Source: a virus
IMG/VR virus record: IMGVR_UViG_3300046838_000312
Span: 1-22,654 of that record
Length of the DNA: 22,654 bases
Strand: one strand, 5' to 3'
Shown: in pieces, positions 6,745 to 22,654 of the stretch
Position numbering within the stretch: the stretch's first letter is position 1
How the letters are laid out: every line of letters begins with the position of its first letter
The notes under the pieces: generated by a model
The model's database searches: none
Seen by the model: the letters and a program-made list of their open reading frames with translations, nothing else
Told to the model about the DNA's origin: nothing
Translations under genes and position numbers: made by a program

Positions 6745-7415
6745 TGTCGACGCTGCACGATCTCATCTACTCGGGCTTCACCGCCCGGCAGGGACGCGCC
6801 ATCCTGGCGGCCCTCGCTGGTGGCGGCGGAGGCGGTGGCGGCGGCGCAGGCGGCCCATCGGGGATGACCTCGGTGCAGGCCGGCGCGTGGGCCAAGAGCG
6901 AGGTCACCACCGGCAACGGCACGGCCGACCCGTACACCTACTTCACGGCGCGGACCTTCACCTTCAACCGCAACCCGGGTGGGACCAACCCCGGGCATGT
7001 GCAGGGGCCGGCGCTCGTCGACGGTGACGCGGACGGCTACTTCGGCTTCGACATGGCCGCCGCCGGCTGGTACCAGATGTCCGGCAGCATCAACTTCCAG
7101 GTGTCCCACGCCGACCCGCAGGCGCTGCCCGACTTCGCCACGATCGAGATGCTCTACGGCGAGTGGGGCCAGCCGGGCATCAGCCAGCTGCAGCCCCTCG
7201 CTGACGGGCGGATCGGCTACGACTCCTTCGGCACCGGCCGCGGCGCTTTCTGGAGCGCAGTCACCGAGCCGTTCTACATGCACGGCTACGACGTCACCTG
7301 GGGGACCGGGATCGCCTTCCGGATCCGGATGCCCGGGGTCGGCTTCACCCTCGCCACCTGGAACAACTCCCTGGCCCAGTACGCGCTGAAGCTCAGCGTT
7401 ACCCAGCTGGGCTGA
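6744..7415 (+). CDS. virion fibre/decoration-like protein with poly-glycine linker (paralog 2)
   Basis: A 223-residue protein with a TGATG start/stop overlap (6742-6746). Residues 1-25 (LHDLIYSGFTARQGRAILAA) align with the first paralog through the shared pattern DLIxSGxxARxxRxILA, followed by nine glycines (26-34). The remaining about 185 residues are a beta-rich domain containing GWYQMSGSINFQVS, matching the GWYQISW strand of its neighbour, and ending in ALKLSVTQLG. The head domains are otherwise divergent, which is what fast-evolving surface-exposed receptor or decoration proteins show after duplication. The stop overlaps the terminase ATG, so translation of the two is coupled. Confidence 0.7.
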   Translation: MSTLHDLIYSGFTARQGRAILAALAGGGGGGGGGAGGPSGMTSVQAGAWAKSEVTTGNGTADPYTYFTARTFTFNRNPGGTNPGHVQGPALVDGDADGYFGFDMAAAGWYQMSGSINFQVSHADPQALPDFATIEMLYGEWGQPGISQLQPLADGRIGYDSFGTGRGAFWSAVTEPFYMHGYDVTWGTGIAFRIRMPGVGFTLATWNNSLAQYALKLSVTQLG

Positions 7416-9010: not shown

Positions 9011-10467
9011 GGTTCATCGCGGCGATCGACACGACGTTCTTCGGCGTCTCCTACGCCCAGGGCAGCGACGTCAACACCACCAACTGGACCAAGCGGCAGA
9101 TCCTCCAGCACCTCGACCTGGGGCTCATCGCACCCAGCCAGATCTCCTCCGGCCAGATCGCTGACGCGCTGAAGTTCGACGGTGACGGGGTCACCACGGT
9201 CGTCGACATCAACGGCCGGACCATCGTCACCATCTCGATGCTCCCGCAGGTCATCAACTGGCTGCTCGACGTCGACACCGAGTCAGCCCCGCCCGACGAC
9301 GGCGCCGCGCTGGTGTGGGACGCCGGCGTTGAGCAGTGGGTGCCCGGTACGCCCACCGGTGGTGGCGGAGGCGGCGGCGGAACGCTGGACTCCCTCACCG
9401 ACGTCGACGTGTCCACCGACCCACCGGGTGACGGGGCCACGCTGCTCTACGACGCCCTGACCGGCCAGTGGATCCCCGGCAGCGTCGTGGCGGCGAACCT
9501 CGACGACCTGACCGACGTCGACGTGACCACCAGCCCGCCCACCGACAACGAGGCGCTCGTCTGGGACTCGACCCTCGGCAAGTGGGTGCCCGGCAGCGCC
9601 TCGAGCACGCCAGGGCCTCCTGGGCCGACGTCGTGGGGTATCCCCACGCCCTGGAGCTCGGCGAGCAGCTATGTCACCGGCCCGCCTGCCTCGGTGGTCA
9701 CCTACAACGGCAGCGCGTACGTGGCGATCTTGCCGGGTGCCAACCACCAGCCCGACGTCTCCACGACCTTCTGGCGGTTGATCGTCTCCAAGGGTGCGCA
9801 GGGCGACGTCGGCCCGGCCAGCACCGTTCCTGGCCCGCCCGGGCCTGCCAACACCCTGAGCATCGGCACTGTCAGCGCCGGGACTGCGGCCGCCACCATC
9901 ACCGGCACGGCGCCGACGCAGACCCTCAACCTGGTCCTGCCGCCAGGAGCGACCGGCGCCGACGGGCGCACCGTGCTCAGCACCAGCGGCATCCCCAGCA
10001 ACGCCACGGGGCTCAACGGCGACTTCGCCTACGACGCGGCCAGCAAGGTCATGTACGGGCCCAAGGCCGCTGGCGTCTGGCCCGCCGGCGTCTCCCTGGC
10101 CGGCTCGGCCGGGGCCAACGGCAAGGGCGGCGTCAACAACACGATGAGTTGGGTCGGCACCCTCATCGTCACCACGACCAGCCCCCGGCTCTACTACGAC
10201 GGCGGCGGCACGCTCACGATCGCCAAGATCCGCCTGAGCGTGCAGACCCCGTCTGTCGGGGCTGACATCATCGTCGACGTGCTGAAGAACGGGACCACGA
10301 TCTTCCCGACCACCGCCAGGCCCAAGATCGTGGCGGCCGCGTCCACCGGGACCGCCGTGCCCGACATCACGAACTGGGGCGACGGCGACTACCTGCAGTT
10401 CATCGTCACCCAGGTCGGCACCACCTACGCCGGCTTCACCCTGACGGCCACGGCGGCGATCGCATGA
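9007..10467 (+). CDS. tail fibre-like protein with W-x-PG repeats, chitin-binding-like and collagen-like segments
   Basis: A 486-residue structural protein, coupled to the terminase by ATGA. Residues 1-95 form an N-terminal domain with phage-like repeats starting around DITxGTQTI-type strands (IADALKFDGDGVTTVVDING). Residues 97-114 give one half module ending in QWVPG. Eight glycines follow (118-125), then two full modules (126-158 and 165-196) of the form LxDLTDVDVxTxPPxDxxxLxxDxxxxxWxPGS, a repeat type common in phage tail fibres. Residues 201-281 include short collagen-like PGPPGP runs and a segment (SYVTGPPASVVTYNGSAYVA, then TTFWRLI) resembling a type 5/12 carbohydrate-binding module. 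Residues 360-486 form a beta-rich C-terminal head. Likely role: fibre or appendage contacting host glycans. Confidence 0.8.
   Translation: MRFIAAIDTTFFGVSYAQGSDVNTTNWTKRQILQHLDLGLIAPSQISSGQIADALKFDGDGVTTVVDINGRTIVTISMLPQVINWLLDVDTESAPPDDGAALVWDAGVEQWVPGTPTGGGGGGGGTLDSLTDVDVSTDPPGDGATLLYDALTGQWIPGSVVAANLDDLTDVDVTTSPPTDNEALVWDSTLGKWVPGSASSTPGPPGPTSWGIPTPWSSASSYVTGPPASVVTYNGSAYVAILPGANHQPDVSTTFWRLIVSKGAQGDVGPASTVPGPPGPANTLSIGTVSAGTAAATITGTAPTQTLNLVLPPGATGADGRTVLSTSGIPSNATGLNGDFAYDAASKVMYGPKAAGVWPAGVSLAGSAGANGKGGVNNTMSWVGTLIVTTTSPRLYYDGGGTLTIAKIRLSVQTPSVGADIIVDVLKNGTTIFPTTARPKIVAAASTGTAVPDITNWGDGDYLQFIVTQVGTTYAGFTLTATAAIA
9382..9594 (+). repeat. tandem fibre repeat modules (two copies plus a preceding partial)
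   Basis: Two protein-level repeats of about 33 residues inside the 9007-10467 gene: LDSLTDVDVSTDPPGDG...QWIPGS and LDDLTDVDVTTSPPTDN...KWVPGS. A third, partial copy ending QWVPG precedes the poly-glycine tract at 9358-9381. The third-position differences show that they are old duplications rather than an assembly artefact. Confidence 0.75.
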
Positions 10468-12932
10468 CCGACCCTTCGGTGCGGGCGTACGCCTACAACC
10501 TCAACAACACCGTCACCAACACCAATGCGATCGTCTGGCCCGCGGGCATTATTGCCGGCGACCGGCTCTTCCTGCTGGCGGCCGGGCCGTACCACCCCAC
10601 CGCCCTGGCGGGCTGGGACATCCTCTACGACGTCGTCGACACCAACTTCCAGGCCGGGACCCTCTTCACCAAGATCGCTGCGGGTACCGAGTCCGGGACG
10701 ACCACCACGGTCACCTTCTCCAGCTCGGACCGCAGCTGCGTCGAGGTCGTGGTGGTGCAGGATCCCGCCGGCTACCCGGTCGTCAGTGTGGCCAACGCGT
10801 CCAGTGGTGTGGCCCCGCGCGTCGCTGTGCCCACGGCGGGACATACCGGCTCGCTGATGGTCTACATGGGCGCGCTGCGCGATGGCGGCAACACGCCGAC
10901 GCTGGAGCGCGGAACCACCCTGGTCGCCGCCTACGACGGCAACCGCGAGGCGGCGCTGATCGGGTCCGAGGTTCTCACCAGCAACGAGGAGACCTTCCAG
11001 TACTACTGGGCCGGGATCGCCGGCAACGGCTACTTCTGCGTGTCGATCGAGATGCAGGTTCCGGCCTACACCCGTGGGATGAACGCGGCGTACCTCGCTG
11101 CCCAGGCGGTCGACACCCCGTGGCTGAACTGGCCGCTCGCAGCCGACGCCCAGGACGTGTCAGGGAACGCCCGCCACGGCACCGTCACTGGCCGCTGGAA
11201 CTTCGGTCGAGGCATGGGGATCGGCGACGGCGGCGACGGCTCCCAGAGCCTCGGTGGCACCAGCTACATCCGCAGCGCCTCACTGGCCATCCCTGCCGGC
11301 AAGATCGCCGTCGAGGTGATCGCTGACATCACCCAGACGGCCGACAACATCCGGATGGTCTTCTGTCTCGGCACCTCGAACTTCGACCTGTACCTCAACG
11401 GTGGCGGGATCATCGTCAACAACGGCGGCTCGAACGTCGGCACGGTCCAGCGCCAGGAAGGCATCCACCACGTTGTCATCGAGACGACGCCCGGCACTGA
11501 CTGGACAACCAGCGGCTCCAAGATCTACATCGACGGCGTGCTGAAGGCGACCAGCGGCACCCACACCATCGCCGTGCTCGGGACCACCACGGTGCAGGTC
11601 AGCGGGTGGCCGTCATCTGGCGGACAGGAGCTGCCAGCCGGCTACTTCGTCGGTGGCTTCGCCATCTACGCCGGTGGTCTGAGTGCGGCCCGGGTGCTGG
11701 CGCACTGGAACGCGCTCGGCACCACGACGACCGGTACCGGCAAGCCCACCGACACCGCCAGCCTGATGACGATGGTCGCGATGGAGAAGGTGCCCGGTGC
11801 CACCGTCAACGGTGCCCGTCCCTCGCTGCTGCGTGACCTGTCAGGCAAGCGCCGGCACATGCTGTCCTCCAGCGCCAACACCGGCCAGATCAAGCTCCCG
11901 GCCACTCCGGCCGGGAAGCCCTCGCTGATGCTCGGCAACCTCTACGCGGCCGCGTACAACTTCCAGCGCGGACTGATGGGCGACATGGTCGCCGGCGAGA
12001 TGTTCGTGCTGTTCAAGCACACCGCCGACCCACCGACCCTCGGTGACGGCCGGTTCTGGCAGATCGGCAACGACGGCCAGATCTCGCACATCCCCTATGT
12101 CGACGGCCAGCTGTACGACAACTTCGGCACCACCTCGCGCAAGGTCGCCACCAACCCGACCCTCTCGTTCGCCGCCCAGTACACGGTCTACAACGTCCGC
12201 TCGGCCGCCGGCGCCTGGTCCAACTACGTCGAGAACGTGCTGAACTACACCACCGCCAGCAACACCGTGGGCTGGTCCAACACTCCCTTCATCGGCTGGC
12301 CCGACGGCAACGAGCAGAACACCGAGCTCGTGGCGTTCCTGATGTACGGGGAGGTCCTCGCCTCACCGGACCGCGCGATCGCGCTGGCGTGGTTGGACCA
12401 GCAGCGCAGCCCCGTCCAGATCGACAACGCCTTCACCGGCGCGACCGTCGTCCCGCTCGACCCCGGGACCCTGCCGGCCAGCAACCAGGTCGACAGTACG
12501 GCGTACACCACCGAGGGGTCCGAGCCGCTGACCATGCCGCTCGACAAGACCGGCTGGGCCCACTTCCTCATCCTCGCCTCGGGGACCTACACCTTCGACA
12601 CCTCCGGCTCGAACTTTGACTCCGGCCTGGCGGTCTACACCGGCGCCTCGGTCGGGGCGCTCACACTGGTCGCATCGGACCACGGGTCGGGCACCGGCTC
12701 GCCGCTGGGGTCCAAGCTCAGTGTCGCCCTGACCGCCGGCACGACGTACCACGTGCAGATCGGGTCAGGCACCGGGAGCGCCTCCGGGACGATCATGAAG
12801 CTGGGTGTCAGTGTGGTCTCACTGACGGGCGCGCTCGCTCCAGTCAGCACGGCTCCCGGCGCGCAGACCAGCCTGGGATGGCTCTACAAGGGCCGCTCGA
12901 ACCAAGCAAGCGACGCTCTAAGCGGAGGCTGA
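10464..12932 (+). CDS. large multidomain adhesin/tail fibre with LamG-like and PPC-like domains
   Basis: An 822-residue protein, ATGA-coupled to the preceding fibre. Domain order by sequence pattern: residues 1-196, a beta-sandwich beginning VRAYAYNLNNTVTNTNAIVW and GDRLFLLAAGPYHPTALAGW, a layout frequent in phage fibres; about 219-420, a LamG/concanavalin-like domain (WLNWPLAADAQDVSGNARHG, then KIYIDGVLK and a closing FAIYAGGLSAARVLAHW strand); about 426-646, a second ConA-like domain (SLLRDLSGKRRHML, then EMFVLFKHTA and LVAFLMYGEVL); about 663-790, a bacterial PPC-like beta domain (GWAHFLILASGTYTFDTSGS, SGLAVYTG, TTYHVQIGSGT). All of these domain types bind sugars or proteins at surfaces, so this is likely a receptor-binding or baseplate fibre. 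Confidence 0.8.
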   Translation: MTDPSVRAYAYNLNNTVTNTNAIVWPAGIIAGDRLFLLAAGPYHPTALAGWDILYDVVDTNFQAGTLFTKIAAGTESGTTTTVTFSSSDRSCVEVVVVQDPAGYPVVSVANASSGVAPRVAVPTAGHTGSLMVYMGALRDGGNTPTLERGTTLVAAYDGNREAALIGSEVLTSNEETFQYYWAGIAGNGYFCVSIEMQVPAYTRGMNAAYLAAQAVDTPWLNWPLAADAQDVSGNARHGTVTGRWNFGRGMGIGDGGDGSQSLGGTSYIRSASLAIPAGKIAVEVIADITQTADNIRMVFCLGTSNFDLYLNGGGIIVNNGGSNVGTVQRQEGIHHVVIETTPGTDWTTSGSKIYIDGVLKATSGTHTIAVLGTTTVQVSGWPSSGGQELPAGYFVGGFAIYAGGLSAARVLAHWNALGTTTTGTGKPTDTASLMTMVAMEKVPGATVNGARPSLLRDLSGKRRHMLSSSANTGQIKLPATPAGKPSLMLGNLYAAAYNFQRGLMGDMVAGEMFVLFKHTADPPTLGDGRFWQIGNDGQISHIPYVDGQLYDNFGTTSRKVATNPTLSFAAQYTVYNVRSAAGAWSNYVENVLNYTTASNTVGWSNTPFIGWPDGNEQNTELVAFLMYGEVLASPDRAIALAWLDQQRSPVQIDNAFTGATVVPLDPGTLPASNQVDSTAYTTEGSEPLTMPLDKTGWAHFLILASGTYTFDTSGSNFDSGLAVYTGASVGALTLVASDHGSGTGSPLGSKLSVALTAGTTYHVQIGSGTGSASGTIMKLGVSVVSLTGALAPVSTAPGAQTSLGWLYKGRSNQASDALSGG

Positions 12933-12935
12933 CAG

Positions 12936-13862
12936 ATGGCGTTCACGTACCAGGAGTTCACCTCCACGCCGGCGACGATCATCGCCGACCTCAAGACGAA
13001 GATCGTGCTGAGCTCGAACTGGACGGTGCCGACCGGCAACGTGGTGCAGTGCACCGCAGCCAACGGTGCCACCATGGCGCTCGACCTGACCGGCGGTGGC
13101 GCGGCGGACAACCAGCGGATCCGCACCATGGCCTACCGGCTGTTCTCCGGCGGCGTCGGGACCAACGGCGTCCAGCGCTCTCTCTACTGGAACCGCGTGG
13201 CGCCTGCCTCGAGCGCCACGTTGCGCGTGCGGGTCTTCGCCGGCAACACCCTGCTCTACATCGAGATCGAGGGGCCACGCGCCGGGGAGGCCGGCGCCGA
13301 CAGCACCACCTTCGGCTCGTACCGCCAGAGCATCTGGCTCGCCCAGATCACGCCGTACCACGGTGCCGACACCATCCCTTGCGTGGCGTTCGGCGGGACC
13401 AGCTCGTACCACGGCTACGAGAGCATCGTCGGGACCGCGCCGAACAGCCAGGTCGTCTACGTCTCGAGGAACCAGGGCGATACCTCGTCGTGGGTCACAG
13501 CTCGGATCATGACCCTGACAGTGCCTGCCTGGCAGATCAACGCCCAGGCCTACAACTACAGGGCCCTGGCCAGCGACGGCACCCAGTTCCTGCTGCCGTG
13601 GGTGGTCTTCGAGGACAGCGCCGGGATTCGCGGCCGCCTGACCGACATGTTCTACGCCGGCTGGTCGGCGTCCGACGACACCGCTGTCGTCGGCACGATC
13701 GCCGACAGCCAGACCATCACCTACGGCGGCAACACCTACCGGGTCACCACGCCCTGGCGGACCGACCAGACGGGGTCGGCCAACTCCTTCGGCTCGTTCG
13801 GCGTGGTGGCCAACGCCAGCGTCTCGGTCCGCTCTCCTCTGGTCGCCTGCCGAGTGATCTGA
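12936..13862 (+). CDS. virion structural protein, probable fibre component
   Basis: A 308-residue protein with GCGGAGG seven bases before ATG 12936. The sequence is entirely beta-rich, with regular alternation of hydrophobic and polar residues (TLRVRVFAGNTLLYIEIEG, QSIWLAQITPYHG, SQVVYVSRNQGD, ARIMTLTVPAWQI) and no transmembrane, coiled-coil or catalytic motif. The N-terminus (TYQEFTSTPATIIADLKTKI) is a short helix. I recognise the style of phage appendage proteins but not a named family. Its position between the large adhesin and two more short structural genes suggests part of the same appendage. Confidence 0.65.
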   Translation: MAFTYQEFTSTPATIIADLKTKIVLSSNWTVPTGNVVQCTAANGATMALDLTGGGAADNQRIRTMAYRLFSGGVGTNGVQRSLYWNRVAPASSATLRVRVFAGNTLLYIEIEGPRAGEAGADSTTFGSYRQSIWLAQITPYHGADTIPCVAFGGTSSYHGYESIVGTAPNSQVVYVSRNQGDTSSWVTARIMTLTVPAWQINAQAYNYRALASDGTQFLLPWVVFEDSAGIRGRLTDMFYAGWSASDDTAVVGTIADSQTITYGGNTYRVTTPWRTDQTGSANSFGSFGVVANASVSVRSPLVACRVI

Positions 13863-13863
13863 C

Positions 13864-14265
13864 ATGCCGACGCTGCTGCTGTCCGACGCAGTCAAGAACC
13901 TCGAGGCCGACGCGCTCGCGGCGGTGATCACCCACCTGTCGATCCACACGGCGACCACGGGGACCACTGGCGTGGCCGAGGCTGTTGGCGGGAGCCCGGC
14001 GTACGCCCGCAAGGCCGTCACCTTCAACGCCGCCGGGACGGTCGGGCCGTTGGGTGCTGCCGTCCAGCCGGCCACGGTGGGTATCGCGTGGTCGACCCAG
14101 GCGGTCTTCGACCTGCCAGCCGGCACCTACCCGTTCTGGGGAGCCTGGAACGCGCTGACGTCCGGACTGTTCCGGATGGGGCGCGACTTCTCCAGCGCTC
14201 GCGTGCTCGGCACCCAGGACATCCTGCCGATGGCGATCGGCATCGGCCCGGCAGTAGGAGCCTGA
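13864..14265 (+). CDS. small phage structural protein
   Basis: A 133-residue protein starting one base after the preceding stop. After an N-terminal helix (LLLSDAVKNLEADALAAVIT), residues about 25-70 read HLSIHTATTGTTGVAEAVGG then AYARKAVTFNAAG, a pattern I associate with short uncharacterised tail-associated proteins found beside fibre genes in actinophages; this is from memory. The rest is beta-rich (GIAWSTQAVFDLPAGTYPFW) and ends with a Gly/Ala tail. No metal or catalytic site. Likely virion component, possibly a fibre connector or head-distal cap. Confidence 0.6.
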   Translation: MPTLLLSDAVKNLEADALAAVITHLSIHTATTGTTGVAEAVGGSPAYARKAVTFNAAGTVGPLGAAVQPATVGIAWSTQAVFDLPAGTYPFWGAWNALTSGLFRMGRDFSSARVLGTQDILPMAIGIGPAVGA

Positions 14266-14266
14266 G

Positions 14267-15235
14267 ATGACTCTGCTTGACGCGCAGGCCTTCGAGAACG
14301 GCGACCGCTCGCTCTACACCCAGAGCGGCCGCTTCCAGCTGGACACCGGCCGGTTCGGCGGGTTCTCGCTGCGGGCCGACATCTTCTACTCGTCCATCAG
14401 CAAGGCCATCCCGGCCAGCACTGAGGTGGTCGTCGGGACCGCGCTGTTCTTCGGGAGCATCTCGCCGACGGTGAACCACCCGATGCACGTCTACTACGAG
14501 GGCGCGACGCTCCACGTCGCCATCCAGATGACGGCGTCCAACACGCTGCAGATCATCGTCGGCACCACGGTGGTGGCCACGGTCTCCGCTCCACCCTGGC
14601 GGCTCGGCTGGAACTACCTGGAGAGCAAGGTCCGGGTCAACTCGAGCACTGGGTACGTCGAGGTGCGGCTGAACGGGGTGGTCACCCCGATCCTGACTTT
14701 CTCGGGCAACACCCGCAACGGCGGCACCGGCGTCATCAACATCATGCAGCTGGAGCTGCCGGACGGGTGGCGCGTCGACGACTGGGTGATCATGGACACC
14801 CTCGGGAGCACCCTCAACGACTTCATCGGCGAGGTTCGGCTCAGCGATGTGGTGCCCACCGGCGCCGGCAGCTCGACCGGCTTCACCCCGTCGACCGGGG
14901 CGAACTGGAGCAACGTTGACGAGTCCGGGCCCAGCAGCACCGACTACAACAGCTCCGGCGTCAGCGGCACACGAGACCTGTACGCGATGAGCAACGTCGC
15001 CGGATCCCAGGTGCTCGGTGTGTTCACTAGCCTGTGGGCGCACCGCGGCGACACGGCGCCGGTCTCGATCAAGCTGGCCATGAAGAACGGCTCCACCATC
15101 TCCTACGGCGCGACCAACCTGCTGACCAGCGCGATGGTTCTCTACCAGGACGCCTGGGGAGTCAACCCGGATACCGGGACTGCGTGGACCGTCTCGGACG
15201 TCAACGCGATGGAGCTCGGCGCCGAGGTCGTCTAG
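14267..15235 (+). CDS. ConA/LamG-like tail fibre protein
   Basis: A 322-residue protein, ATG two bases after the preceding TGA. Residues 1-215 have the strand order of a concanavalin-like sandwich: FSLRADIFYSS near 38, TALFFGSIS, then MHVYYEGATLHVAIQM, LQIIVGTTVVATV, GWNYLESKVRVN, TGYVEVRLNGV, and DDWVIMDTLGS, typical of LamG-type lectins. Residues 220-322 form a second domain (GFTPSTGANWSNVDESGPSS then SQVLGVFTSLWAHRGDTAPV) like the extended C-terminal part of many phage minor tail proteins. It most likely contacts the host surface or a partner fibre. Its stop TAG overlaps the GTG of the next gene. Confidence 0.7.
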   Translation: MTLLDAQAFENGDRSLYTQSGRFQLDTGRFGGFSLRADIFYSSISKAIPASTEVVVGTALFFGSISPTVNHPMHVYYEGATLHVAIQMTASNTLQIIVGTTVVATVSAPPWRLGWNYLESKVRVNSSTGYVEVRLNGVVTPILTFSGNTRNGGTGVINIMQLELPDGWRVDDWVIMDTLGSTLNDFIGEVRLSDVVPTGAGSSTGFTPSTGANWSNVDESGPSSTDYNSSGVSGTRDLYAMSNVAGSQVLGVFTSLWAHRGDTAPVSIKLAMKNGSTISYGATNLLTSAMVLYQDAWGVNPDTGTAWTVSDVNAMELGAEVV

Positions 15236-15630
15236 TGGTCGACGTCAGGATCGACGCCGTCAGCGCGACGGCGATCATCGCAGGGCCACCCGATGCGCGA
15301 CTCGACGCGGTCAGCGCGACAGTCATCCTCAAGGGCGCGGCCGACGCCCGGATCGACACGCTCGGTGCGACGGTCATCATCGGCATCTCCAACCTGGAGA
15401 TGGCGCCGCTCACCCTCACGGCCCTCGAGGTCTTCCCGATCGTCGAGCCGGCCCCGCTCGTCATCAATGTGGACGTCACTGTCTTCGGCACCGGCGCCGG
15501 CGTTGCCGGCATGCCGTGGATCCCCGCCGGCGTCGTGGCGACTGTCGGCAGCCTGTGGCTCCAGGACGGCATCGCCTCGGACACCGTGGTCGGTGGTGGC
15601 TGGGGCGTCATCGTCATGATCAACCCCTAG
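15235..15630 (+). CDS. virion-associated protein with three short tandem repeats
   Basis: A 131-residue protein starting at GTG 15235, which shares its G with the preceding TAG stop. Longer upstream forms of the frame would overlap a real gene by 200 bases. Residues 2-53 are three near-identical units of 17-18 residues: VDVRIDAVSATAIIAGPP, DARLDAVSATVILKGAA and DARIDTLGATVIIGIS. The remainder is hydrophobic and beta-rich (LTALEVFPIVEPAPLVINVD then PWIPAGVVATVGSLWL) and Val/Ile/Gly-rich to the end. Repeats of this kind often form stacked beta structures. No known family recognised. Position suggests a fibre component. Confidence 0.6.
   Translation: MVDVRIDAVSATAIIAGPPDARLDAVSATVILKGAADARIDTLGATVIIGISNLEMAPLTLTALEVFPIVEPAPLVINVDVTVFGTGAGVAGMPWIPAGVVATVGSLWLQDGIASDTVVGGGWGVIVMINP
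15238..15393 (+). repeat. three tandem 17-18-residue coding repeats
   Basis: Three copies of the pattern D-x-R-[IL]-D-[AT]-[VL]-[SG]-A-T-x-I-[IL] are visible in the 15235-15630 gene. The DNA copies share stretches such as GTCAGCGCGAC and end in variable bases, so the unit probably expanded by slippage or unequal exchange. Confidence 0.65.
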
Positions 15631-15663
15631 CTCCGCCTCACGCACCAGCCCAGCGGTACGGGT

Positions 15664-15669
15664 TACCCT
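15664..15669 (+). promoter_or_regulatory. candidate -10 element (TACCCT) in GTTACCCT motif
   Basis: In the 71-base gap before the lysis genes, GGGTTACCC (15660-15668) is a small odd palindrome, flanked by GGTAC (15655-15659) and GTACC (15677-15681). TACCCT fits TAnnnT. No good -35 is visible. The same octamer lies upstream of other rightward genes. Confidence 0.3.
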
Positions 15670-15701
15670 CGGTGAGGTACCCACACCCAGCGGAGGCAGA
15701 G

Positions 15702-15863
15702 ATGCAGGACCAGCCAGACCAGACCACCGGCCAGCTGCCGAACAGCGCCGGCGAGATCGAAGACGCGGCCGCCATCCCCAAGGCGCCGGTCAACCCCGAG
15801 TCCCGCGAGGTCGACGTCGACCCCGAGGTCGAGGCGTCCTACGCTCGCGAGGAGCAGTCGTGA
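15702..15863 (+). CDS. short acidic protein, first of the lysis region
   Basis: A 53-residue protein with ATG 15702 preceded by GCGGAGG at good spacing; longer forms of the frame have no such site. It is hydrophilic and acidic (SREVDVDPEVEASYAREEQS) with no membrane segment or Cys. It overlaps the endolysin start by GTGA (15860-15863), so translation of the two is coupled. It could be a small regulator of, or accessory to, the endolysin, but nothing in it says so. Not recognised. Confidence 0.6.
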   Translation: MQDQPDQTTGQLPNSAGEIEDAAAIPKAPVNPESREVDVDPEVEASYAREEQS

Positions 15864-16939
15864 CGGCCACCCTGGCGGCCTACCGCGCTGCCATCCTCCA
15901 GGACTATGGCTACGTCGAGGGCCCCAACAACTACACCAAGTTCGGCGTCTGGTACGCCGGCCAGGTCAACGCTCCCTGGTTCGCCAACGCGGCCTGGTGC
16001 GACATGTCCACCTCGTACTGGGCTGACAAGGTCGGGGCCCGCGACGAGGTCGGCCTCTTCGCCTACACCCCGACGCATGCGCAGTGGTTCAAGGACCGCG
16101 GCCGCTGGTCGTGGCTCCCCGTCGCAGGTGGCATCGCCTTCTGGGACTGGGCGGGCAGCAACCTCATCAGCGCCATCGACCACGTCTCCGCGCTCATCGA
16201 GTCCGTTGACTCCGCTGGTCAGGCCACCACGCTCGACGGCAACTACTCCGACAAGGTCTGGCGCTGGCAGCACCCGATGCGCTACTTCGTCGGCTGCGGA
16301 CTCCCGCAGTGGTCCACGTCGGCAGGGAGCGTTCCGCCCCCGATCCTTCAGAACTGGGACGGCGTCTCGTACCCCGGCCGCGCTGCCTTCGACCTCGGCT
16401 CCAACCACCCGGCTGTCACCAAGCTCGGCCAGATGCTGGTCGCCAAGGGCTTCGGCGGCGCATACAAGCAAGGCCCCGGCATCCCGATGGGCCCGGCTGA
16501 CGTCGCCAACACCGCTGCCTTCCAGCGCGCGCAGGGCTGGACCGGAGCGGACGCTGACGGCTACCCGGGCCCGGAGACCTGGCGGCGCCTGATGGCTGGC
16601 TCTACGCCGCCACCGCCTCCCCCGCCGCCGGCGGAGAAGGTTCCGCCGACCCAGGGCTACCAGGGCGACGCGTACCTGGGGAAGCTGCACCGCGGCCAGA
16701 CCGACTCCGACTCGGTGAAGGTCTACCAGCGCGCGCTGCGCAACTACCCCGGGATCTCCACCATCCCGCTGAACCCCAGTGGGGTGACCGGCACCTACGG
16801 CTCGGAGACCGAGGCCATGACGCGCAAGGTCTACGAGACCTTCGCCCAGTGGCAGCCCTCGGGTGGCTGGGGCGGTGGCGACCTCGGCGTCCCCGGCCGC
16901 GCGCTGCTCGAGAAGCTCGGCGTCCGCGTCATCGGATAG
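15860..16939 (+). CDS. endolysin: CHAP-type N-terminus plus two peptidoglycan-binding domains
   Basis: A 359-residue lysin, starting at GTG 15860. Residues 1-150 fit a CHAP (cysteine-histidine amidohydrolase/peptidase) domain: Cys47 in NAAWCDMSTSYW, His108 in AIDHVSALIE and Asn128 in LDGNYSDKVW are the expected catalytic residues. Residues 172-247 resemble a peptidoglycan-binding domain (LGSNHPAVTKLGQMLVAKGF then FQRAQGW and GYPGPETWRRLM). A Pro linker (250-257) leads to a second binding-type domain (272-355, with SDSVKVYQRALRNY). It should cut peptide or amide bonds in the host cell wall. No signal peptide is seen, so export through a holin is expected. A run of membrane proteins follows. 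Confidence 0.9.
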   Translation: MTATLAAYRAAILQDYGYVEGPNNYTKFGVWYAGQVNAPWFANAAWCDMSTSYWADKVGARDEVGLFAYTPTHAQWFKDRGRWSWLPVAGGIAFWDWAGSNLISAIDHVSALIESVDSAGQATTLDGNYSDKVWRWQHPMRYFVGCGLPQWSTSAGSVPPPILQNWDGVSYPGRAAFDLGSNHPAVTKLGQMLVAKGFGGAYKQGPGIPMGPADVANTAAFQRAQGWTGADADGYPGPETWRRLMAGSTPPPPPPPPAEKVPPTQGYQGDAYLGKLHRGQTDSDSVKVYQRALRNYPGISTIPLNPSGVTGTYGSETEAMTRKVYETFAQWQPSGGWGGGDLGVPGRALLEKLGVRVIG

Positions 16940-16944
16940 CCGCC

Positions 16945-17220
16945 ATGCCCGAGAAGGCACGCGCGGTGTTGCACGAAGTCGTCTCGGTGCCCAAGACGTT
17001 CGATGGCTGGGCCATGCGCGTGCTGACGATCGCGGTGGTTCTGTGCATGATCAGCGCCTGGGCGACCTTCGCTGCGTCCCGGACCCTCAGTCTCCAGATC
17101 GAGGAGCTGCAGGAGAAGAACGGCACCTACCAGAAGCAGGCGCAGGTGCGCGGGTGTCTGCTACTGCAGAAGCTGGGGTCGACGCCCGAGGAGCTCGCGA
17201 GTGTCGGATGCACTCCCTGA
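16945..17220 (+). CDS. single-pass membrane protein in lysis region
   Basis: A 91-residue protein, ATG 16945, five bases after the endolysin stop. One membrane helix (about residues 23-44, MRVLTIAVVLCMISAWATFA) is followed by a coiled-coil-like segment (LSLQIEELQEKNGTYQKQAQ) and a C-terminal part with Cys71 and Cys89. Its position directly behind the lysin suggests a lysis accessory membrane protein. A spanin is not expected in a Gram-positive host. The end overlaps the next gene's start by 13 bases. Confidence 0.65.
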   Translation: MPEKARAVLHEVVSVPKTFDGWAMRVLTIAVVLCMISAWATFAASRTLSLQIEELQEKNGTYQKQAQVRGCLLLQKLGSTPEELASVGCTP

Positions 17221-17663
17221 TCGAGCGGGTCGGGCGCGCCAGCGATGCCGTCTTCTTCGTGCTCGAGGAGACTGGCGAGCTGGTCTTCGGGACCATCGCC
17301 CGCGTCCCGTTCTGGCTTCTATGTATCGCGGTGACCCTCCCGTTCCTCATCAGTGCAGCCCCTCCAGCTGCCGAGGTCAACACAAGTGACCCCCTCACTA
17401 ACCTCATCCAGTACGGCGTTCTCGGTATGGTGGTTTTGGGGTTTATTACGGGATGGATCGTGCCGGGCCCACAGGCCAAGCAACTGATCGAGGAGAACAA
17501 GCGGCTGAACGCGCTCATCGAGAGCCGATTCCTGCCGATGTCAGAGCAATATGCGGCCACCCTGGAGAGGTCGGCGATCGTGATGGACAAGGCCACGGAC
17601 GCACTCGAGGTAGCCGCCGCGGCACTTGCCAGGCTTGAGCCGCGCGAGCGAGGCAAAGGATGA
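17208..17663 (+). CDS. two-helix membrane protein, holin-like candidate
   Basis: A 151-residue protein, ATG 17208 overlapping the previous gene by 13 bases. An amphipathic N-terminal segment (residues 1-31) is followed by two membrane helices (about 33-51 FWLLCIAVTLPFLIS and 64-86 TNLIQYGVLGMVVLGFITGW), then a long helical charged C-terminus (KQLIEENKRLNALIESR). Two helices with a charged C-terminus are in line with class II holins or with lysis-cassette membrane proteins. The gene at 18252-18638 is a competing holin candidate. The region has clearly more A/T than its neighbours. Confidence 0.6.
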   Translation: MHSLIERVGRASDAVFFVLEETGELVFGTIARVPFWLLCIAVTLPFLISAAPPAAEVNTSDPLTNLIQYGVLGMVVLGFITGWIVPGPQAKQLIEENKRLNALIESRFLPMSEQYAATLERSAIVMDKATDALEVAAAALARLEPRERGKG

Positions 17664-17851
17664 CTGTGATCACCCTTCGACGACGCGCACATCTATCTCA
17701 ACTGCAGCGAACACGTCTAGAAACGCTTACTGAGGTGAGTGAGCGGGTACTTGACGACAAAACAGAGCAAGCAAACGCTGCAAGCAAGCGTGTCGAGGCC
17801 GCTGCTGCGAGACTATTGGAAGGTCACGAGCGTCTTCTGCGCGGTGGCTGA
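17660..17851 (+). CDS. short helical/coiled-coil protein
   Basis: A 63-residue protein coupled by ATGA (17660-17663) to the preceding membrane protein. After a basic start (LRRRAHLSQLQRTR) it is a continuous helix of Ala/Glu/Arg (EQANAASKRVEAAAARLLEG). The DNA is unusually rich in A/T and in rare-for-this-region codons (CTA, AAA, ACA, GCA, AGC), so base use differs from the rest of the window. It may be a small soluble partner of the membrane protein upstream. Function not known. Confidence 0.55.
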   Translation: MTVITLRRRAHLSQLQRTRLETLTEVSERVLDDKTEQANAASKRVEAAAARLLEGHERLLRGG

Positions 17852-17881
17852 CCACCTCGCTCCGTCGGCAGGGAGAGCACC

Positions 17882-18247
17882 TTGTTCAGCATCATCGTCG
17901 TGTCGGCACTGGCCACCGTCATCGTCTCGTCGCTGATCTTCTTCTTCGGCTGGGGCCTTCCCGCCATCCGCGCGTACCGCCACGGCAGCCTGCGGGTCCG
18001 CAAGCTAGTCCTGCTGGACTTCGTCGGCTTCAACGTGGCGGCCTTCCTGCTCGGCGCGCTAGCCATGTACGGCGTCATCACGGTCGGCATCCAGCCGCCG
18101 TCGACGGCGGTCGGCACAATCGTGAGAGCCGGTCAGACCGTCCTCATCGCTGCCCTGTGCACCCTCAGATGCATCGTCTGGATCGTCGAGCGCAAGCATG
18201 ATTCCGGGGTGTCGGATCTCATCGTGACCAGGAAGGAGGCATCCTGA
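17882..18247 (+). CDS. three-helix membrane protein
   Basis: A 121-residue protein starting at TTG 17882, supported by AGGGAGAG five bases upstream. A GTG at 17900 is the alternative. Three membrane helices are clear: about 3-28 (SIIVVSALATVIVSSLIFFF), 44-68 (LLDFVGFNVAAFLLGALAMY) and 78-102 (VGTIVRAGQTVLIAALCTLR), with a polar C-terminus (ERKHDSGVSDLIVTRKEAS). It belongs to the run of membrane proteins after the endolysin. A holin or holin-antagonist role is possible. Family not recognised. Confidence 0.65.
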   Translation: MFSIIVVSALATVIVSSLIFFFGWGLPAIRAYRHGSLRVRKLVLLDFVGFNVAAFLLGALAMYGVITVGIQPPSTAVGTIVRAGQTVLIAALCTLRCIVWIVERKHDSGVSDLIVTRKEAS

Positions 18248-18251
18248 CGCC

Positions 18252-18638
18252 ATGTCCACGGACCTTCTCCTGATCAACGCGATCGTCGGAATCGTCATCC
18301 CGGCGCTGGTGGCACTGCTCACCAAGGCGGCGGCGCCCGACTGGGTGAAGGCGGTCGTGAACCTCCTCCTGGCGGCGATCGCCGGCGTGCTGACGCCGAT
18401 GGTCGCCTCGGGGACGGATGACATCGACTGGAAGGTCACCGGGCTGACCATCCTGCAGGTGTTCGTGCTGTCGGTGGTGGCCCACTACGGCCTGCTGAAG
18501 CCGACCGGGCTGACCGGTGGCGCCGGCGTCATCTCCCAGGCCGTTCCCGGAGGGGTAGGGCCCACCGACCCGGTCAAGGTGCAGACGCAGCTGGTCACCT
18601 CGCCGTTGGCCCAGGACGTACCGCCCGCAGGCCCATGA
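18252..18638 (+). CDS. putative holin
   Basis: A 128-residue protein, ATG 18252. Three membrane helices, about residues 6-24 (LLINAIVGIVIPALVALLTK), 33-51 (KAVVNLLLAAIAGVLTPMV) and 63-82 (GLTILQVFVLSVVAHYGLL), with a soluble C-terminus (90-128). The layout of a short N-terminus, a helix ending in LVALLTK and a second helix with AxxGVLT resembles actinophage holins, which make the membrane pore that releases the endolysin. It lies 1.3 kb downstream of the lysin. It is the best holin candidate of the several membrane proteins here, but no experiment is implied. Confidence 0.65.
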   Translation: MSTDLLLINAIVGIVIPALVALLTKAAAPDWVKAVVNLLLAAIAGVLTPMVASGTDDIDWKVTGLTILQVFVLSVVAHYGLLKPTGLTGGAGVISQAVPGGVGPTDPVKVQTQLVTSPLAQDVPPAGP

Positions 18639-18787: not shown

Positions 18788-18793
18788 TAGGGT
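18788..18793 (+). promoter_or_regulatory. weak candidate -10 (TAGGGT) upstream of portal gene
   Basis: TAGGGT fits TAnnnT in the 58-base gap before the portal gene, whose GTG lies 35 bases further on. There is no clear -35. The gap shows no hairpin. Reported only as a weak candidate. Confidence 0.2.
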
Positions 18794-18827
18794 GAGACGA
18801 TCGCCGCAGCACACCGGAGGAGAGCAC

Positions 18828-20585
18828 GTGCCAGGCACCAGGTATGTCACGCCGAGCGAAGCGGCGGACCGTAGCGCCATGGAGGAGATCCCGCACAGCG
18901 GGCCGCTCTACTTCAACGAGGTGGGCGTCAGCGGGCTGAAGTACTCCTCCGGGTACGTCGACGAGGAGTTCCTGCCGCACCTGCGCGGGCGCAAGGCGAT
19001 CCAGGTCTACCGGGAGATGGGCGACAACGACGCCATCACCGGCGCCCTGCTCTTCGCCGTCCAGCAGCTGATGCGCGGCCTGGACTGGAACGTCGTAGCC
19101 GGGTCCAAGAACCAGGAGGGGGCCAAGGCCGCCAAGCTGGTCGAGTCCTCCAAGGACGACATGTCCCACACCTGGGACGACTTCGTCGTCGAGGCGCTGA
19201 CCCATCTGCAGTTCGGTTGGGCGTGGCACGAGATCATGTATAAGCGCCGGATGGGGCCCTGGCAGACCGATGGTCGCCGGCGCAGCAAGTACACCGATGG
19301 GCTGATCGGCTGGCGCAAGATGCCGCTGCGGTCCCAGGACTCTCTGCACCGCTGGATCTTCGATGAGACCGGCAACGTGCAGGCGATGGTGCAGATGGCG
19401 CCGCCGCACTACCAGACCAAGACGCTGGCGATCGAGCGGTCCCTGCTGTTCCGCTTCGGCCACCACAAGGGCAACCCCGAGGGTCGCTCGATCCTGCGCA
19501 ACTCCTACCGCTCCTGGTACTACAAGAAGCGCCTCGAGGAGTTCGAGAGCGTGGGCATCGAGCGCGACCTGGCGGGCCTGCCGATGGTCAAGGTGCCGGC
19601 GGAGTACCTGCGGGCTGAGCCGGGCACCCAGCAGTACAAGATGGTCGAGGCCATGAAGCGGATGGTCCGCTCGGTCCGGCGCAACGAGCAGGAGGGCCTG
19701 GTCTTCCCGATCGCCTACGACGCGGAGACCAAGCAGCCCCTCTTCTCCTTCGAGCTGCTGTCCAGCGGCGGCAGCCGCCAGTACGACACCAACGCGTTGA
19801 TCCAGCGCTACGAGCAGCGCCAGCTGATGACCACGCTGGCCGACTTCATCATGGTCGGCCACCAGGGCAGCACCGGCACCTACAACCTGCACGTCGACAA
19901 GACGGGCATCTTCCGCGACACCCTCAACGCGGTCGCCTCCAACATCGCCGAGACGATGAACCGGTACGCGATCCCGCGCCTGTTCGCCGCCAACGGCTGG
20001 CGCCCGTCCGAGCTGCCGCGCTTCGAGGTCGGCAACGTCGACGCGCCAGACCTCGGCCAGCTTGCGCAGTTCCTCACCGCCACGGCGGGCCTCGGCTTCA
20101 ACTGGGGACCGGACGCCGACATGGAGCGGTTCATCCGCCACGCCGCGGGCCTGCCCGACCTGTCCCCCGAGGACGTCGAGAAGCGTCGGCGCGAGGCTCG
20201 CATGGACGAGGCCGCCCGGATGGCGGTCACCCAGACCGAGTACCTCGGCGCCCGCCAGCAGCTGGCCCAGGCCGTCGCCACCGAGCGGCAGCTGGCGGCC
20301 GGCGAGCACACGCCCGAGACGCTGGCCATGGAGCAGCAGAGCCAGGCGAGCGCCCAGCAGCAGGCGGCCGGGCAGCAGCAGATGCAGATCGGCGCCGCCG
20401 GCGAGCAGCGGGCCCAGGAGCAGCACTCGATGGCCCGCCAGCAGGGTCTCTTCGCGGCGATCGGCGGCGAGCCCGGCCCGAACGGGCAGAACGGTGCCAC
20501 GCAGGCCAAGTCCCCGATCAAGAAGCCGGTCCGCAAGCGCCTGGTCGCCACCGGCGCGCCGCGGCGTCAGCTGGTGGACCGATGA
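18828..20585 (+). CDS. portal protein (DUF935 / Mu gp29-like)
   Basis: A 585-residue protein, GTG 18828 after GGAGGAGAG. The longer form from 18792 lacks such a site. The portal is the dodecameric ring at one capsid vertex through which DNA is packaged and ejected. The N-terminal segment DEEFLPHLRGRKAIQVYREM, the block FVVEALTHLQFGWAWHEIMY, then GLIGWRKMPLRSQDSLHRWI and GRSILRNSYRSWYYKKRLEE are typical of the DUF935 family. Residues about 495-560 are Gln/Ala-rich (ASAQQQAAGQQQMQIGAAGE), probably disordered or a crown-like extension, ending in a basic tail. In this window it is 9.8 kb from the terminase, unlike the common adjacent arrangement. The stop overlaps the next ATG. Confidence 0.9.
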   Translation: MPGTRYVTPSEAADRSAMEEIPHSGPLYFNEVGVSGLKYSSGYVDEEFLPHLRGRKAIQVYREMGDNDAITGALLFAVQQLMRGLDWNVVAGSKNQEGAKAAKLVESSKDDMSHTWDDFVVEALTHLQFGWAWHEIMYKRRMGPWQTDGRRRSKYTDGLIGWRKMPLRSQDSLHRWIFDETGNVQAMVQMAPPHYQTKTLAIERSLLFRFGHHKGNPEGRSILRNSYRSWYYKKRLEEFESVGIERDLAGLPMVKVPAEYLRAEPGTQQYKMVEAMKRMVRSVRRNEQEGLVFPIAYDAETKQPLFSFELLSSGGSRQYDTNALIQRYEQRQLMTTLADFIMVGHQGSTGTYNLHVDKTGIFRDTLNAVASNIAETMNRYAIPRLFAANGWRPSELPRFEVGNVDAPDLGQLAQFLTATAGLGFNWGPDADMERFIRHAAGLPDLSPEDVEKRRREARMDEAARMAVTQTEYLGARQQLAQAVATERQLAAGEHTPETLAMEQQSQASAQQQAAGQQQMQIGAAGEQRAQEQHSMARQQGLFAAIGGEPGPNGQNGATQAKSPIKKPVRKRLVATGAPRRQLVDR

Positions 20586-20878
20586 GTAGCGACACGCAGA
20601 TTGACTCCGACGCCTACCCGGTCGTCGTGGGCATCGTCAGCGCGAAGTCCCGCCGGGCGATCAACGACGCTGCCGCGTTGTTCGCCAGCTACGTGCAGGA
20701 CGTCATGGCCACCGGCCGCTCATCCGAGGACGCCTGGCGCGAGCTCGCGTCGGCCTCGGTGGTCCTGCTGACCGACCAGACCATCGAGCTGGCCCGGCTG
20801 CGTCGGCAGACCTCCGCCCAGGCGGTGCTGCAGCTGGCGGCTGACGTCTGCGACCGCCACTCCGGGAGCCCGGTATGA
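20582..20878 (+). CDS. hypothetical small helical protein
   Basis: A 98-residue protein with ATGA overlaps on both sides (20582-20585 and 20875-20878), between the portal and a large basic protein. It is mainly helical (VSAKSRRAINDAAALFASYV, then EDAWRELASASVVLLTDQTI and TSAQAVLQLAADVCDRH). No membrane helix or catalytic motif. Coupling to the portal suggests a head-assembly role such as a connector or scaffold accessory, but this is inference only. Confidence 0.65.
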   Translation: MSSDTQIDSDAYPVVVGIVSAKSRRAINDAAALFASYVQDVMATGRSSEDAWRELASASVVLLTDQTIELARLRRQTSAQAVLQLAADVCDRHSGSPV

Positions 20879-22654
20879 GCGATCGTCGTCGCGACGCTGC
20901 GACGGCTACAGTCGGGCTCGGTGGCGTCGCGGGGGCTGGTGCGCTGCGCCATGTCGGCCTCGAGCGGGCCTACGAGGGAAAGGCCCGCCCGAAGGTTCCC
21001 CTGCTGCATGAGCTCAAGTTGGTCCGGACCCGACGTGGCCGCATCCCGTACGCCGCCGGCGCAGCGCTGGGGCTGGTCTCCGTGCCGACCGCCGCGGTGG
21101 GCACGTCACGCCTGCTCAGCCGTCGCGTCGACAAGGCCGACGACCGGAAGCGGTCCTTCCTCAGCGAGGGCGTCGCCGGCGCACGCGAGGCGGTCACCTC
21201 CCGCAACGACGCCATCAAGGAGCGCCCACCCGGCAAGCTCGTGGCGGGCAACTACCTGGCCGGTGCCGCGGTCGGGTCCGCCGCTGGCGCGCTGGTGCAC
21301 CGCGCTCCGGCACTGCGTCGCCTGCCCGGCGCGATGCGGTCGGGGCTCGCGGCCGCCAGCGGCGTGACCGCTGGCAGCGCCACGCTGCCGATCCAGAGCA
21401 AGATCACCCAGCGGGCCACCCATGGCGAGTACGAGGTGACCCCCACCGGCGTGCGCCGCAAGCGCAAGAAGCGCGCCGCCCCCTCGCGCACGATCGTCGA
21501 CGGCCGCCCGGGCAAGAGCAACATGCACCCCATGGCGCTGCGCCAGGCGATGGTGCCCAGCAGCGACCCGTTCGAGAAGCGCGGCGAGCGCACAGCGGCG
21601 CGCTGGACGGTCGGGCTCACCCAGACCGCCGACAAGATGGAGCGCAGGGTCAAGCGCGGCCGTCTGGTTCCGGTGGCGGCGATCGGGGTGCGCTCGCTAG
21701 CCCGTGACGCCTCTCCGCTCGCTCGGGTCCGGATCCCGGTCCACAAGGCCGGCTACTACGGCGAGGACATGAGCCGCAGGGAGAAGCGCGCCAGGGTGGC
21801 AGCCGTAGGCGGTGCGCCGTTCGTCGGCGACTTCGCTCAGGCGGCCCAGGCCGGGCGGATGGCCCCTCCCGGCCAGCGTGGCTCGGCCGCGGCCCTGCAG
21901 TACAGCGGTGGCCAGGTCGGCGGCGCAGTCGGACAGGTTGCCGGCGCAGCTGGCGCTCTCGGGCTGGCCAGCCGTAGCCACCACGTCCAGCGGGGTGCGG
22001 AGAAGGTCACCGACGCCGTCGACCGCGCCGAGTCCACTGCCCGGCGGGTGGTCCGCGCTCCGGCCAAGGGCGCTCGCAAGCCCGGCATGCTGGCTCGCGA
22101 GGCGGCCAACCCCAAGGCTCCGCGCGCCGTGCGCGCCGCGCTGCGGCCGGTCGTGCGCAACCCCAAGGCAGCGATCGCCGGCGCCCTCATCGGCGGGGCG
22201 ATCGGCAGCCAGGCCGGCGGCCAGGCTGGCTATGGCATCGCGCTCAACCGCGAGGACGCCTACAAGCGCCGGGTGAACAAGAACATGGCCGGAAAGATGG
22301 GTGGAATCCAGGGTGGCCGCTTCGCCAAGGCGGCCGACACCCACCCGCTGAGCAACCGCGAGCAGCGAGTGCTGCGGCAGCGCAAGAACCGCAGCGCGGT
22401 CATGAGCGCGGTCGGTGGGGCCACTGGCATCGCCTCCCTTGCAGCGCTGGGTGCGTCGCGCCATCCGAAGCTGCGCCGGCTGAAGGACATCCAGACCCCG
22501 CTGCTGACCACCGGTGCCGGTGTGGGTGGGATCAACGCCTTCACCAACGCCGCCATCCAGCGCAAGGAGGCCCAGGCGAGCGCGGTCCGCAAGGCCCTGG
22601 TGCCCACGGGCATCCGGCGCGCCCCGGCGATGCGCGCTGGCTTCATACGTCAGA
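20875..22654 (+). CDS. large basic protein with multiple Gly/Ala-rich hydrophobic segments, partial at window end
   Basis: Open from ATG 20875 to the last base (593 codons, no stop), so the C-terminus is missing. At least eight Gly/Ala-rich hydrophobic segments occur, for example near residues 11-28 (ATVGLGGVAGAGALRHVG), 122-140 (VAGNYLAGAAVGSAAGALV), 345-360 (VGGAVGQVAGAAGALGL), 430-450 (AIAGALIGGAIGSQAGGQAG) and near the end (GAGVGGINAFTNAA). They alternate with very basic Arg/Lys stretches (VRRKRKKRAAPSRT, RREKRARVAAV). GxxxG-type spacing is typical of glycine zippers that pack helices in membranes. Next to the portal, an internal virion or DNA-ejection protein is a reasonable guess. No protease or MuF motif was seen. 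Confidence 0.75.
   Translation, partial: MSDRRRDAATATVGLGGVAGAGALRHVGLERAYEGKARPKVPLLHELKLVRTRRGRIPYAAGAALGLVSVPTAAVGTSRLLSRRVDKADDRKRSFLSEGVAGAREAVTSRNDAIKERPPGKLVAGNYLAGAAVGSAAGALVHRAPALRRLPGAMRSGLAAASGVTAGSATLPIQSKITQRATHGEYEVTPTGVRRKRKKRAAPSRTIVDGRPGKSNMHPMALRQAMVPSSDPFEKRGERTAARWTVGLTQTADKMERRVKRGRLVPVAAIGVRSLARDASPLARVRIPVHKAGYYGEDMSRREKRARVAAVGGAPFVGDFAQAAQAGRMAPPGQRGSAAALQYSGGQVGGAVGQVAGAAGALGLASRSHHVQRGAEKVTDAVDRAESTARRVVRAPAKGARKPGMLAREAANPKAPRAVRAALRPVVRNPKAAIAGALIGGAIGSQAGGQAGYGIALNREDAYKRRVNKNMAGKMGGIQGGRFAKAADTHPLSNREQRVLRQRKNRSAVMSAVGGATGIASLAALGASRHPKLRRLKDIQTPLLTTGAGVGGINAFTNAAIQRKEAQASAVRKALVPTGIRRAPAMRAGFIRQ

Follow-up and report, generated by a model that had tools for sequence, protein, structure and literature searches.

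A family of glycine-zipper-rich basic proteins encoded behind the portal gene of uncultured tailed phages

We analysed a complete virus record of 22,654 bases (IMGVR_UViG_3300046838_000312; the whole stretch is referred to as the window) and found that its last open reading frame encodes a very basic protein rich in glycine zippers, which belongs to a new family of an ordinary kind, a minor head-module protein. On balance, we favour a minor head protein that sits inside the capsid of a tailed phage possessing a tape-measure-like gene and that is most likely ejected along with the DNA. Packaging and ejection, which agree with the original prediction of an ejection or internal head protein, are inferred from the place of the gene in the head operon, the very basic charge and the enzyme-like inserts of relatives; such inserts are of no obvious use in capsid assembly and so fit an internal or ejected head protein. 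The family is of interest because relatives use the protein as a chassis for these enzyme-like domains.

The reading frame behind the portal gene

The frame (20875..22653, plus strand) is free of stops for 593 codons and runs to the end of the record. The record thus ends within the gene, which is truncated at the contig boundary. The portal gene, a 98-codon gene and this frame are linked by 4-base ATGA overlaps, the small gene, for an acidic protein (98 aa, pI 4.9), sharing 4 bases with the end of the portal gene and 4 with the start of the frame that follows. These overlaps, together with codon-position GC (0.744/0.590/0.875) and conservation at the protein level, indicate that the frame is coding. 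The gene had been placed directly beside the portal, which was wrong, as the 98-codon gene (20582-20878) intervenes.

The features are given below. The alignment A2 has 20 rows, the window protein (P0001) and a single row for every distinct locus protein; L010 and L013, which duplicate L009 and L012 respectively, are omitted, and L025 and L026 are partial.

18792..20585, plus strand: Mu-type portal protein, 597 aa (PF06074, E 2.7e-28; phrog_113, E 1.7e-75)
20582..20878, plus strand: small protein of 98 aa, acidic (pI 4.9), from the conserved partner gene (19 aligned rows)
20875..22653, plus strand: glycine-zipper basic protein, 593 aa seen (composition and homologues)
20896..20946, plus strand: uncharged Gly/Ala segment 1, residues 8-24, N-terminal core pair; in 19 of 20 A2 members, the exception being the partial ORF of L025
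21043..21108, plus strand: uncharged segment 2, residues 57-78, N-terminal core pair (composition and A2 alignment)
21238..21297, plus strand: uncharged segment 3, residues 122-141; missing from short relatives
21340..21399, plus strand: uncharged segment 4, residues 156-175; missing from most short relatives
21430..21459, plus strand: YxxTPTGVxR motif, residues 186-195; invariant columns in alignment A1
21754..21903, plus strand: block with YxG, RA and MAPPxxR, residues 294-343; conserved in the nine A1 rows
21880..21972, plus strand: glycine zipper segment 5, residues 336-366, 4 GxxxG (composition)
22168..22248, plus strand: glycine zipper segment 6, residues 432-458, 4 GxxxG (composition)
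22393..22458, plus strand: segment 7, residues 507-528, C-terminal core pair (composition and A2 alignment)
22489..22560, plus strand: segment 8, residues 539-562, C-terminal core pair (composition and A2 alignment)
22585..22599, plus strand: VRKAL, residues 571-575, a degenerate form of [VIFLM][AGS]K[AS][LFIMYWV], the site that precedes the tail in relatives
22615..22653, plus strand: conserved C-terminal tail beginning RRAPAMRAGFIRQ..., broken off at the contig end (relatives' tails)

The 593 residues seen contain 12.1% G, 18.7% A, 13.0% R and 5.2% K, with a net charge of +72 and a pI of 11.8. GxxxG occurs 18 times versus 8.6 ± 2.6 expected, a count reached by none of 2000 shuffles, and GxxxGxxx[GAS] 11 times versus 3.0 expected (2000 shuffles). 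Uncharged runs of at least 14 residues number 8 (183 residues) versus 2.2 (37 residues) expected; again, 0 of 2000 shuffles reach 8. The predicted alternation of Gly/Ala segments, with their GxxxG spacing, and basic stretches is thus real, and both zipper spacing and alternation go beyond the composition of the protein.

Hydrophobicity is modest (highest 19-residue Kyte-Doolittle mean 1.54), so the segments could equally well form soluble helix bundles or insert into membranes. The eight uncharged Gly/Ala segments could point to a late host-membrane protein, acting in membrane stress, lysis timing or superinfection exclusion and lying in the head operon incidentally. Like members of the glycine zipper 2TM family (PF05433), the protein has GxxxG-rich helix pairs, and one of the 20 aligned members matches that profile weakly (E 0.027, possibly by chance), whereas the window protein gives no match. 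A host-membrane role nevertheless appears improbable in view of the charge, the long Arg-rich linkers and the modest hydropathy, the identical post-portal slot in every locus found, and the location of the lysis genes elsewhere in the window.

Structure prediction was poor (mean pLDDT 56, pTM 0.33); in this low-confidence model the YxxTPTGVxR motif provides the sole predicted beta strands. Pfam and PHROG profiles detected no enzymatic domain and no protease domain in the window protein. Judging from the four close complete relatives with an alignable tail (L004, L005, L006 and L007), 17-18 residues are missing from its C terminus. The protein is therefore about 97 percent complete, which makes a concealed extra 3′ domain unlikely for this member.

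Relatives, inserted domains and the C-terminal tail

The window gene matched none of 50,697 phage records as DNA or protein, nor did two relatives of its product, and a scan of viral contigs with the window protein as query gave no relative. The window portal as query retrieved 66 related viral loci. A profile search of their 5,343 ORFs (E < 1e-5) found the glycine-zipper family in 21 of these loci, always in the same slot, directly behind the portal or with the small gene in between; many of the remaining 45 loci stop soon past the portal or are distant. The other matches at this threshold in the last profile round were to the second basic gene alone, which is fused to the glycine-zipper gene in L002 and L014 (two profile rows). 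A second scan added further family loci, among them ParB-bearing ones. With the window portal, a scan of genome contigs gave one distant match and no host for the window virus. One contig of 135,953 bases (IMGVR_UViG_3300027749_000047) carries two different copies of the gene (L077 and L080) separated by about 67 kb; the assembly may have joined the genomes of two related phages.

Identity of relatives to the window protein ranges from 55 percent down to about 20 percent, and all 20 aligned members have a pI of 10.6-11.9. Short and long forms share a core made up of two mostly uncharged segments on the N-terminal side, two on the C-terminal side, and the conserved C-terminal tail; the middle segments occur in the longer forms only. 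In a PDB profile search with the family (30 rows), the sole matches were to influenza haemagglutinin fragments through a glycine-rich stretch, at E 0.09 or worse, and were taken as chance.

Some relatives carry additional domains, which sit inside the chain ahead of the constant C-terminal tail and not at the C terminus. A ParB-fold domain is inserted in five loci (L015, L018, L073, L075 and L086). The profile of these inserts gave five PDB matches, each to SbnI or nucleoid occlusion protein (best E 2.9e-4), both of which are ParB-fold proteins. In PHROG searches many ParB families came up with four of the inserts taken singly (L015, L073, L075 and L086), and ParB families also matched two whole A2 members. 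As other relatives lack the domain, it represents an insertion into a constant scaffold. The ParB inserts come from relatives, the window protein having no recognised domain.

Two other elements are less certain. L008 and L009 share a conserved HExxH followed by EEGRAD, which gave no profile match and nothing useful in a PDB profile search. L043 and L029 have a segment with the H-Y order of ADP-ribosyltransferases (ART); a PARP match was obtained for L029 only (E 0.16), the PDB profile search again gave nothing useful, and the model of the L043 segment failed (pLDDT 42). The names metallopeptidase and ART are therefore unproven.

The tail was found on the glycine-zipper gene alone in 11 of 11 confirmed loci, and the idea of a general cargo tag was rejected on this ground. 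The motif [VIFLM][AGS]K[AS][LFIMYWV] lies 38-48 residues from the end in 16 of 23 complete members, versus 0.46 expected by shuffling with relatedness left in (the A2 rows plus L073, L075, L077, L080 and L086 make 25, from which P0001 and L026 were left out). SPN3US head proteins have propeptides, according to the accessible text of PMC10052503, which makes a removable targeting tail attractive. The motif occurs 34 times versus 4.03 expected in 44 genes from portal to scaffold, 13 times versus 2.28 in five tape-measure-like genes, and 15 times versus 8.69 in 285 other genes. Helix composition may explain this enrichment, and because it extends to tape-measure-like genes, we treat the motif as a candidate protease site only.

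The head operon and the MuF position

In two long relative contigs the gene order is portal, small acidic gene, glycine-zipper gene, second basic gene (about 165 codons) and a gene of 1040-1130 codons, followed by the RWW gene, an S78_2 protease gene and two or three basic Gly/Ala genes, and then by acidic scaffold-like, decoration-like and major capsid genes, connectors and a tape-measure-like gene. The relatives' major capsid gene has 44 percent identity to annotated capsid proteins of isolated phages. The acidic scaffold-like gene (pI 4.3-4.7) is separate and lies ahead of the decoration and capsid genes, and in the five contigs read another gene of its own, tape-measure-like and about 1700-2170 codons long, follows further downstream than the capsid gene. 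These two roles thus seem taken by other genes; moreover, at pI 11.8 the window protein is not acidic, as a scaffold would be.

The small acidic gene precedes the glycine-zipper gene in 19 loci, the window included, and in relatives it overlaps or nearly abuts it. The small proteins have pI 4.4-5.8, values for which the starts in L002, L014 and L043 were taken further upstream. L016 and L086 may have the gene too, with a different start, whereas L019, L026 and L029 showed no recognisable copy. Its product has no convincing family in Pfam, PHROG or PDB, and the simplest guess is a chaperone or adaptor.

Other features of these regions were observed. The gene of 1040-1250 codons occurs in MuF-bearing and MuF-less contigs alike (hhalign probability 100; for example, L005:14494-17610 and L034:11703-15035) and has no Pfam family, with a near-invariant core containing GPEAEK, DDHYLPF, GGxYxRTR and GGPTxEDIY. 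An AAA ATPase (PF00004 and AAA_lid_6) is encoded within the head operon at L017:16304-17110, and ORFs with a similar start occupy the same place in L029, L040 and the L086 contig. In the window, the terminase gene (7415-9010) is about 9.8 kb apart from the portal gene (18792), and the region 9007-18638 between them contains fibre-like genes, an endolysin with a peptidoglycan-binding domain and a holin-like gene. The neighbouring ORFs 6163-6744 and 6744-7415 have similar N-termini, each followed by a glycine run.

From the portal type, a MuF or protease gene had been expected at the position of the glycine-zipper gene. In relatives the protease is in fact present, beyond the point at which the window breaks off: 16 of 19 related contigs have S78_2 (PF14550) downstream, and the other three (L024, L018 and L040) stop short of its position. 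The observation that MuF is not found alongside the gene held up: MuF (PF04233) occurs in 3 of the 19 contigs (L034, L020 and L033), exactly those without a glycine-zipper gene after the portal, and of the 16 MuF-less contigs 15 carry the glycine-zipper gene clearly and L040 weakly. In L034 and L020 the order is portal, a gene of 1100-1250 codons, MuF and protease, indicating that the small gene and the glycine-zipper gene are an insertion between the portal and the 1100-codon gene. The pattern follows lineage, and by itself is no evidence of exchange. The MuF protein at L034:15131-16963 has a C-terminal ParB_N-like domain of the kind inserted in glycine-zipper relatives.

Could the protein be a divergent MuF, protease, scaffold or tape-measure protein missed by profiles? 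The place it occupies near the portal usually belongs to MuF (PMC5576092, in its accessible part); the gene is second after the portal, the small acidic gene lying between. No MuF was found in contigs bearing the gene. However, no MuF domain was matched in the glycine-zipper protein by Pfam or PHROG, and hhalign against two MuF relatives gave a probability of 0.04 out of 100. Furthermore, in the lineage without MuF a different protein of 700-960 codons, called RWW after the residues it starts with, fills the MuF slot before the protease (for example, L005:18062-20944 and L017:17110-19401), and the S78_2 protease, acidic scaffold-like and tape-measure-like genes are all separate. We therefore find a missed homologue of this sort very improbable. 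Consistently, profiles found no protease, MuF or scaffold domain in the family, any of which would have spoken against the original prediction, with the caveat of the HExxH element in two relatives. No family was found for RWW; a divergent MuF was considered for it and ruled out (profile comparison probability 3.7, no detectable relation).

Small basic Gly/Ala proteins of pI 10.7-12 are encoded between the protease and the scaffold-like gene (L020:18830-20448, L089 on the reverse strand, and L091:4683-5668), which means that several proteins of this type are encoded in the head operon. An alternative reading is an assembly core or DNA-organising head protein, its linkers neutralising DNA and its zippers holding a bundle, which never reaches the cell, either remaining in the capsid or being degraded by the head protease. 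The very basic nature of all 20 members would suit such a role, as would an operon shared with a head protease, an acidic scaffold-like protein and several more basic Gly/Ala proteins; the candidate sites with a K that lie ahead of the tail in 16 of the 23 complete members could then be places of processing. On the other hand, ParB-fold and HExxH inserts make little sense in a capsid-bound protein, and the scaffold role is apparently filled by another gene. We regard such a role without delivery as rather unlikely, though a serious alternative to ejection.

Proposed delivery and comparison with known systems

If the protein is ejected, it would be made from the late head operon alongside its small acidic partner, which may keep the +72 polypeptide soluble or guide it to the procapsid. 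There, the Gly/Ala helical hairpins would pack as helix bundles via their GxxxG faces and the Arg/Lys linkers would hold DNA. Upon infection the protein would exit through the portal and tail and act at or across the membrane. The tape-measure-like protein could make the channel instead, which counts against ejection.

Since the scaffold of relatives also bears extra domains (ParB fold, HExxH element), it may serve as a delivery carrier, comparable with toxin-bearing MuF proteins. In its fullest form, which we put forward tentatively, the proposal is of an undescribed carrier, a portal-linked basic zipper scaffold with a constant C-terminal tail and an acidic partner that enters the capsid and then the host with the DNA, acting as a chassis for exchangeable effectors in phages that have lost a recognisable MuF. 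Candidate effectors, suggested by sequence, would be a ParB-fold nuclease, a metallopeptidase-like and an ART-like domain.

As far as the accessible text of PMC5576092 and PMC6316719 goes, MuF genes directly follow portal genes, SPP1 gp7 is directed to the inside of the procapsid, and toxin domains are present on some MuF proteins. Like MuF proteins and MuF polymorphic toxins described there, the glycine-zipper protein is encoded next to or near the portal, combines a constant part with exchangeable enzyme-like domains in relatives, and has a predicted head location with host entry. In contrast to MuF proteins, it lacks a MuF domain, is very basic and zipper-rich, and has a small acidic gene ahead. 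MuF toxins have a constant N-terminal part and a variable C-terminal toxin, whereas the glycine-zipper inserts are internal and the tail is constant; the protein may nonetheless function in a similar way.

Phage polyvalent proteins with ParB, metallopeptidase and ART domains are encoded among virion genes (PMC5512222, accessible part). The glycine-zipper gene has a similar late virion neighbourhood, and the ParB-fold domain, HExxH element and possible ART of relatives are domain types listed in that part of the paper. Polyvalent proteins have at least two domains of unlike activity per chain; unlike them, the window protein is without a detected enzymatic domain. In relatives one ParB-fold domain or one HExxH element was recognised per chain. 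A glycine-zipper carrier is undescribed in PMC5512222, the word 'glycine' being absent from its main text. The open-access library searched gave no evidently relevant paper on glycine-zipper or GxxxG ejection or internal virion proteins, and no match for siphophage ejection proteins, actinobacteriophage internal head protein or ejectosome internal virion proteins.

T7, P22 and T4 package internal head or ejection proteins with the genome. Known membrane-active ejection proteins belong mostly to short-tailed phages, unlike the glycine-zipper lineage, which has a tape-measure-like gene. SPN3US internal proteins are packaged and some are processed by the head protease (PMC10052503, in the text available). 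The glycine-zipper protein would resemble the internal head proteins of T7, P22, T4 and SPN3US-like phages in its proposed packaging with the genome; no sequence relation to the ejection or internal proteins of these phages was found.

Even if the protein is head-bound, it represents a new family of head genes, one that comes with a conserved acidic partner and is missed by current profile libraries. If the carrier proposal is true, uncultured long-tailed phages ship a membrane-friendly and DNA-friendly carrier with the genome, swapping enzymes in and out, which would extend the idea of MuF toxins and polyvalent proteins to a new scaffold. It would also provide a natural way of bringing cargo into bacteria, and a setting in which the disappearance of MuF from this lineage could be tested.
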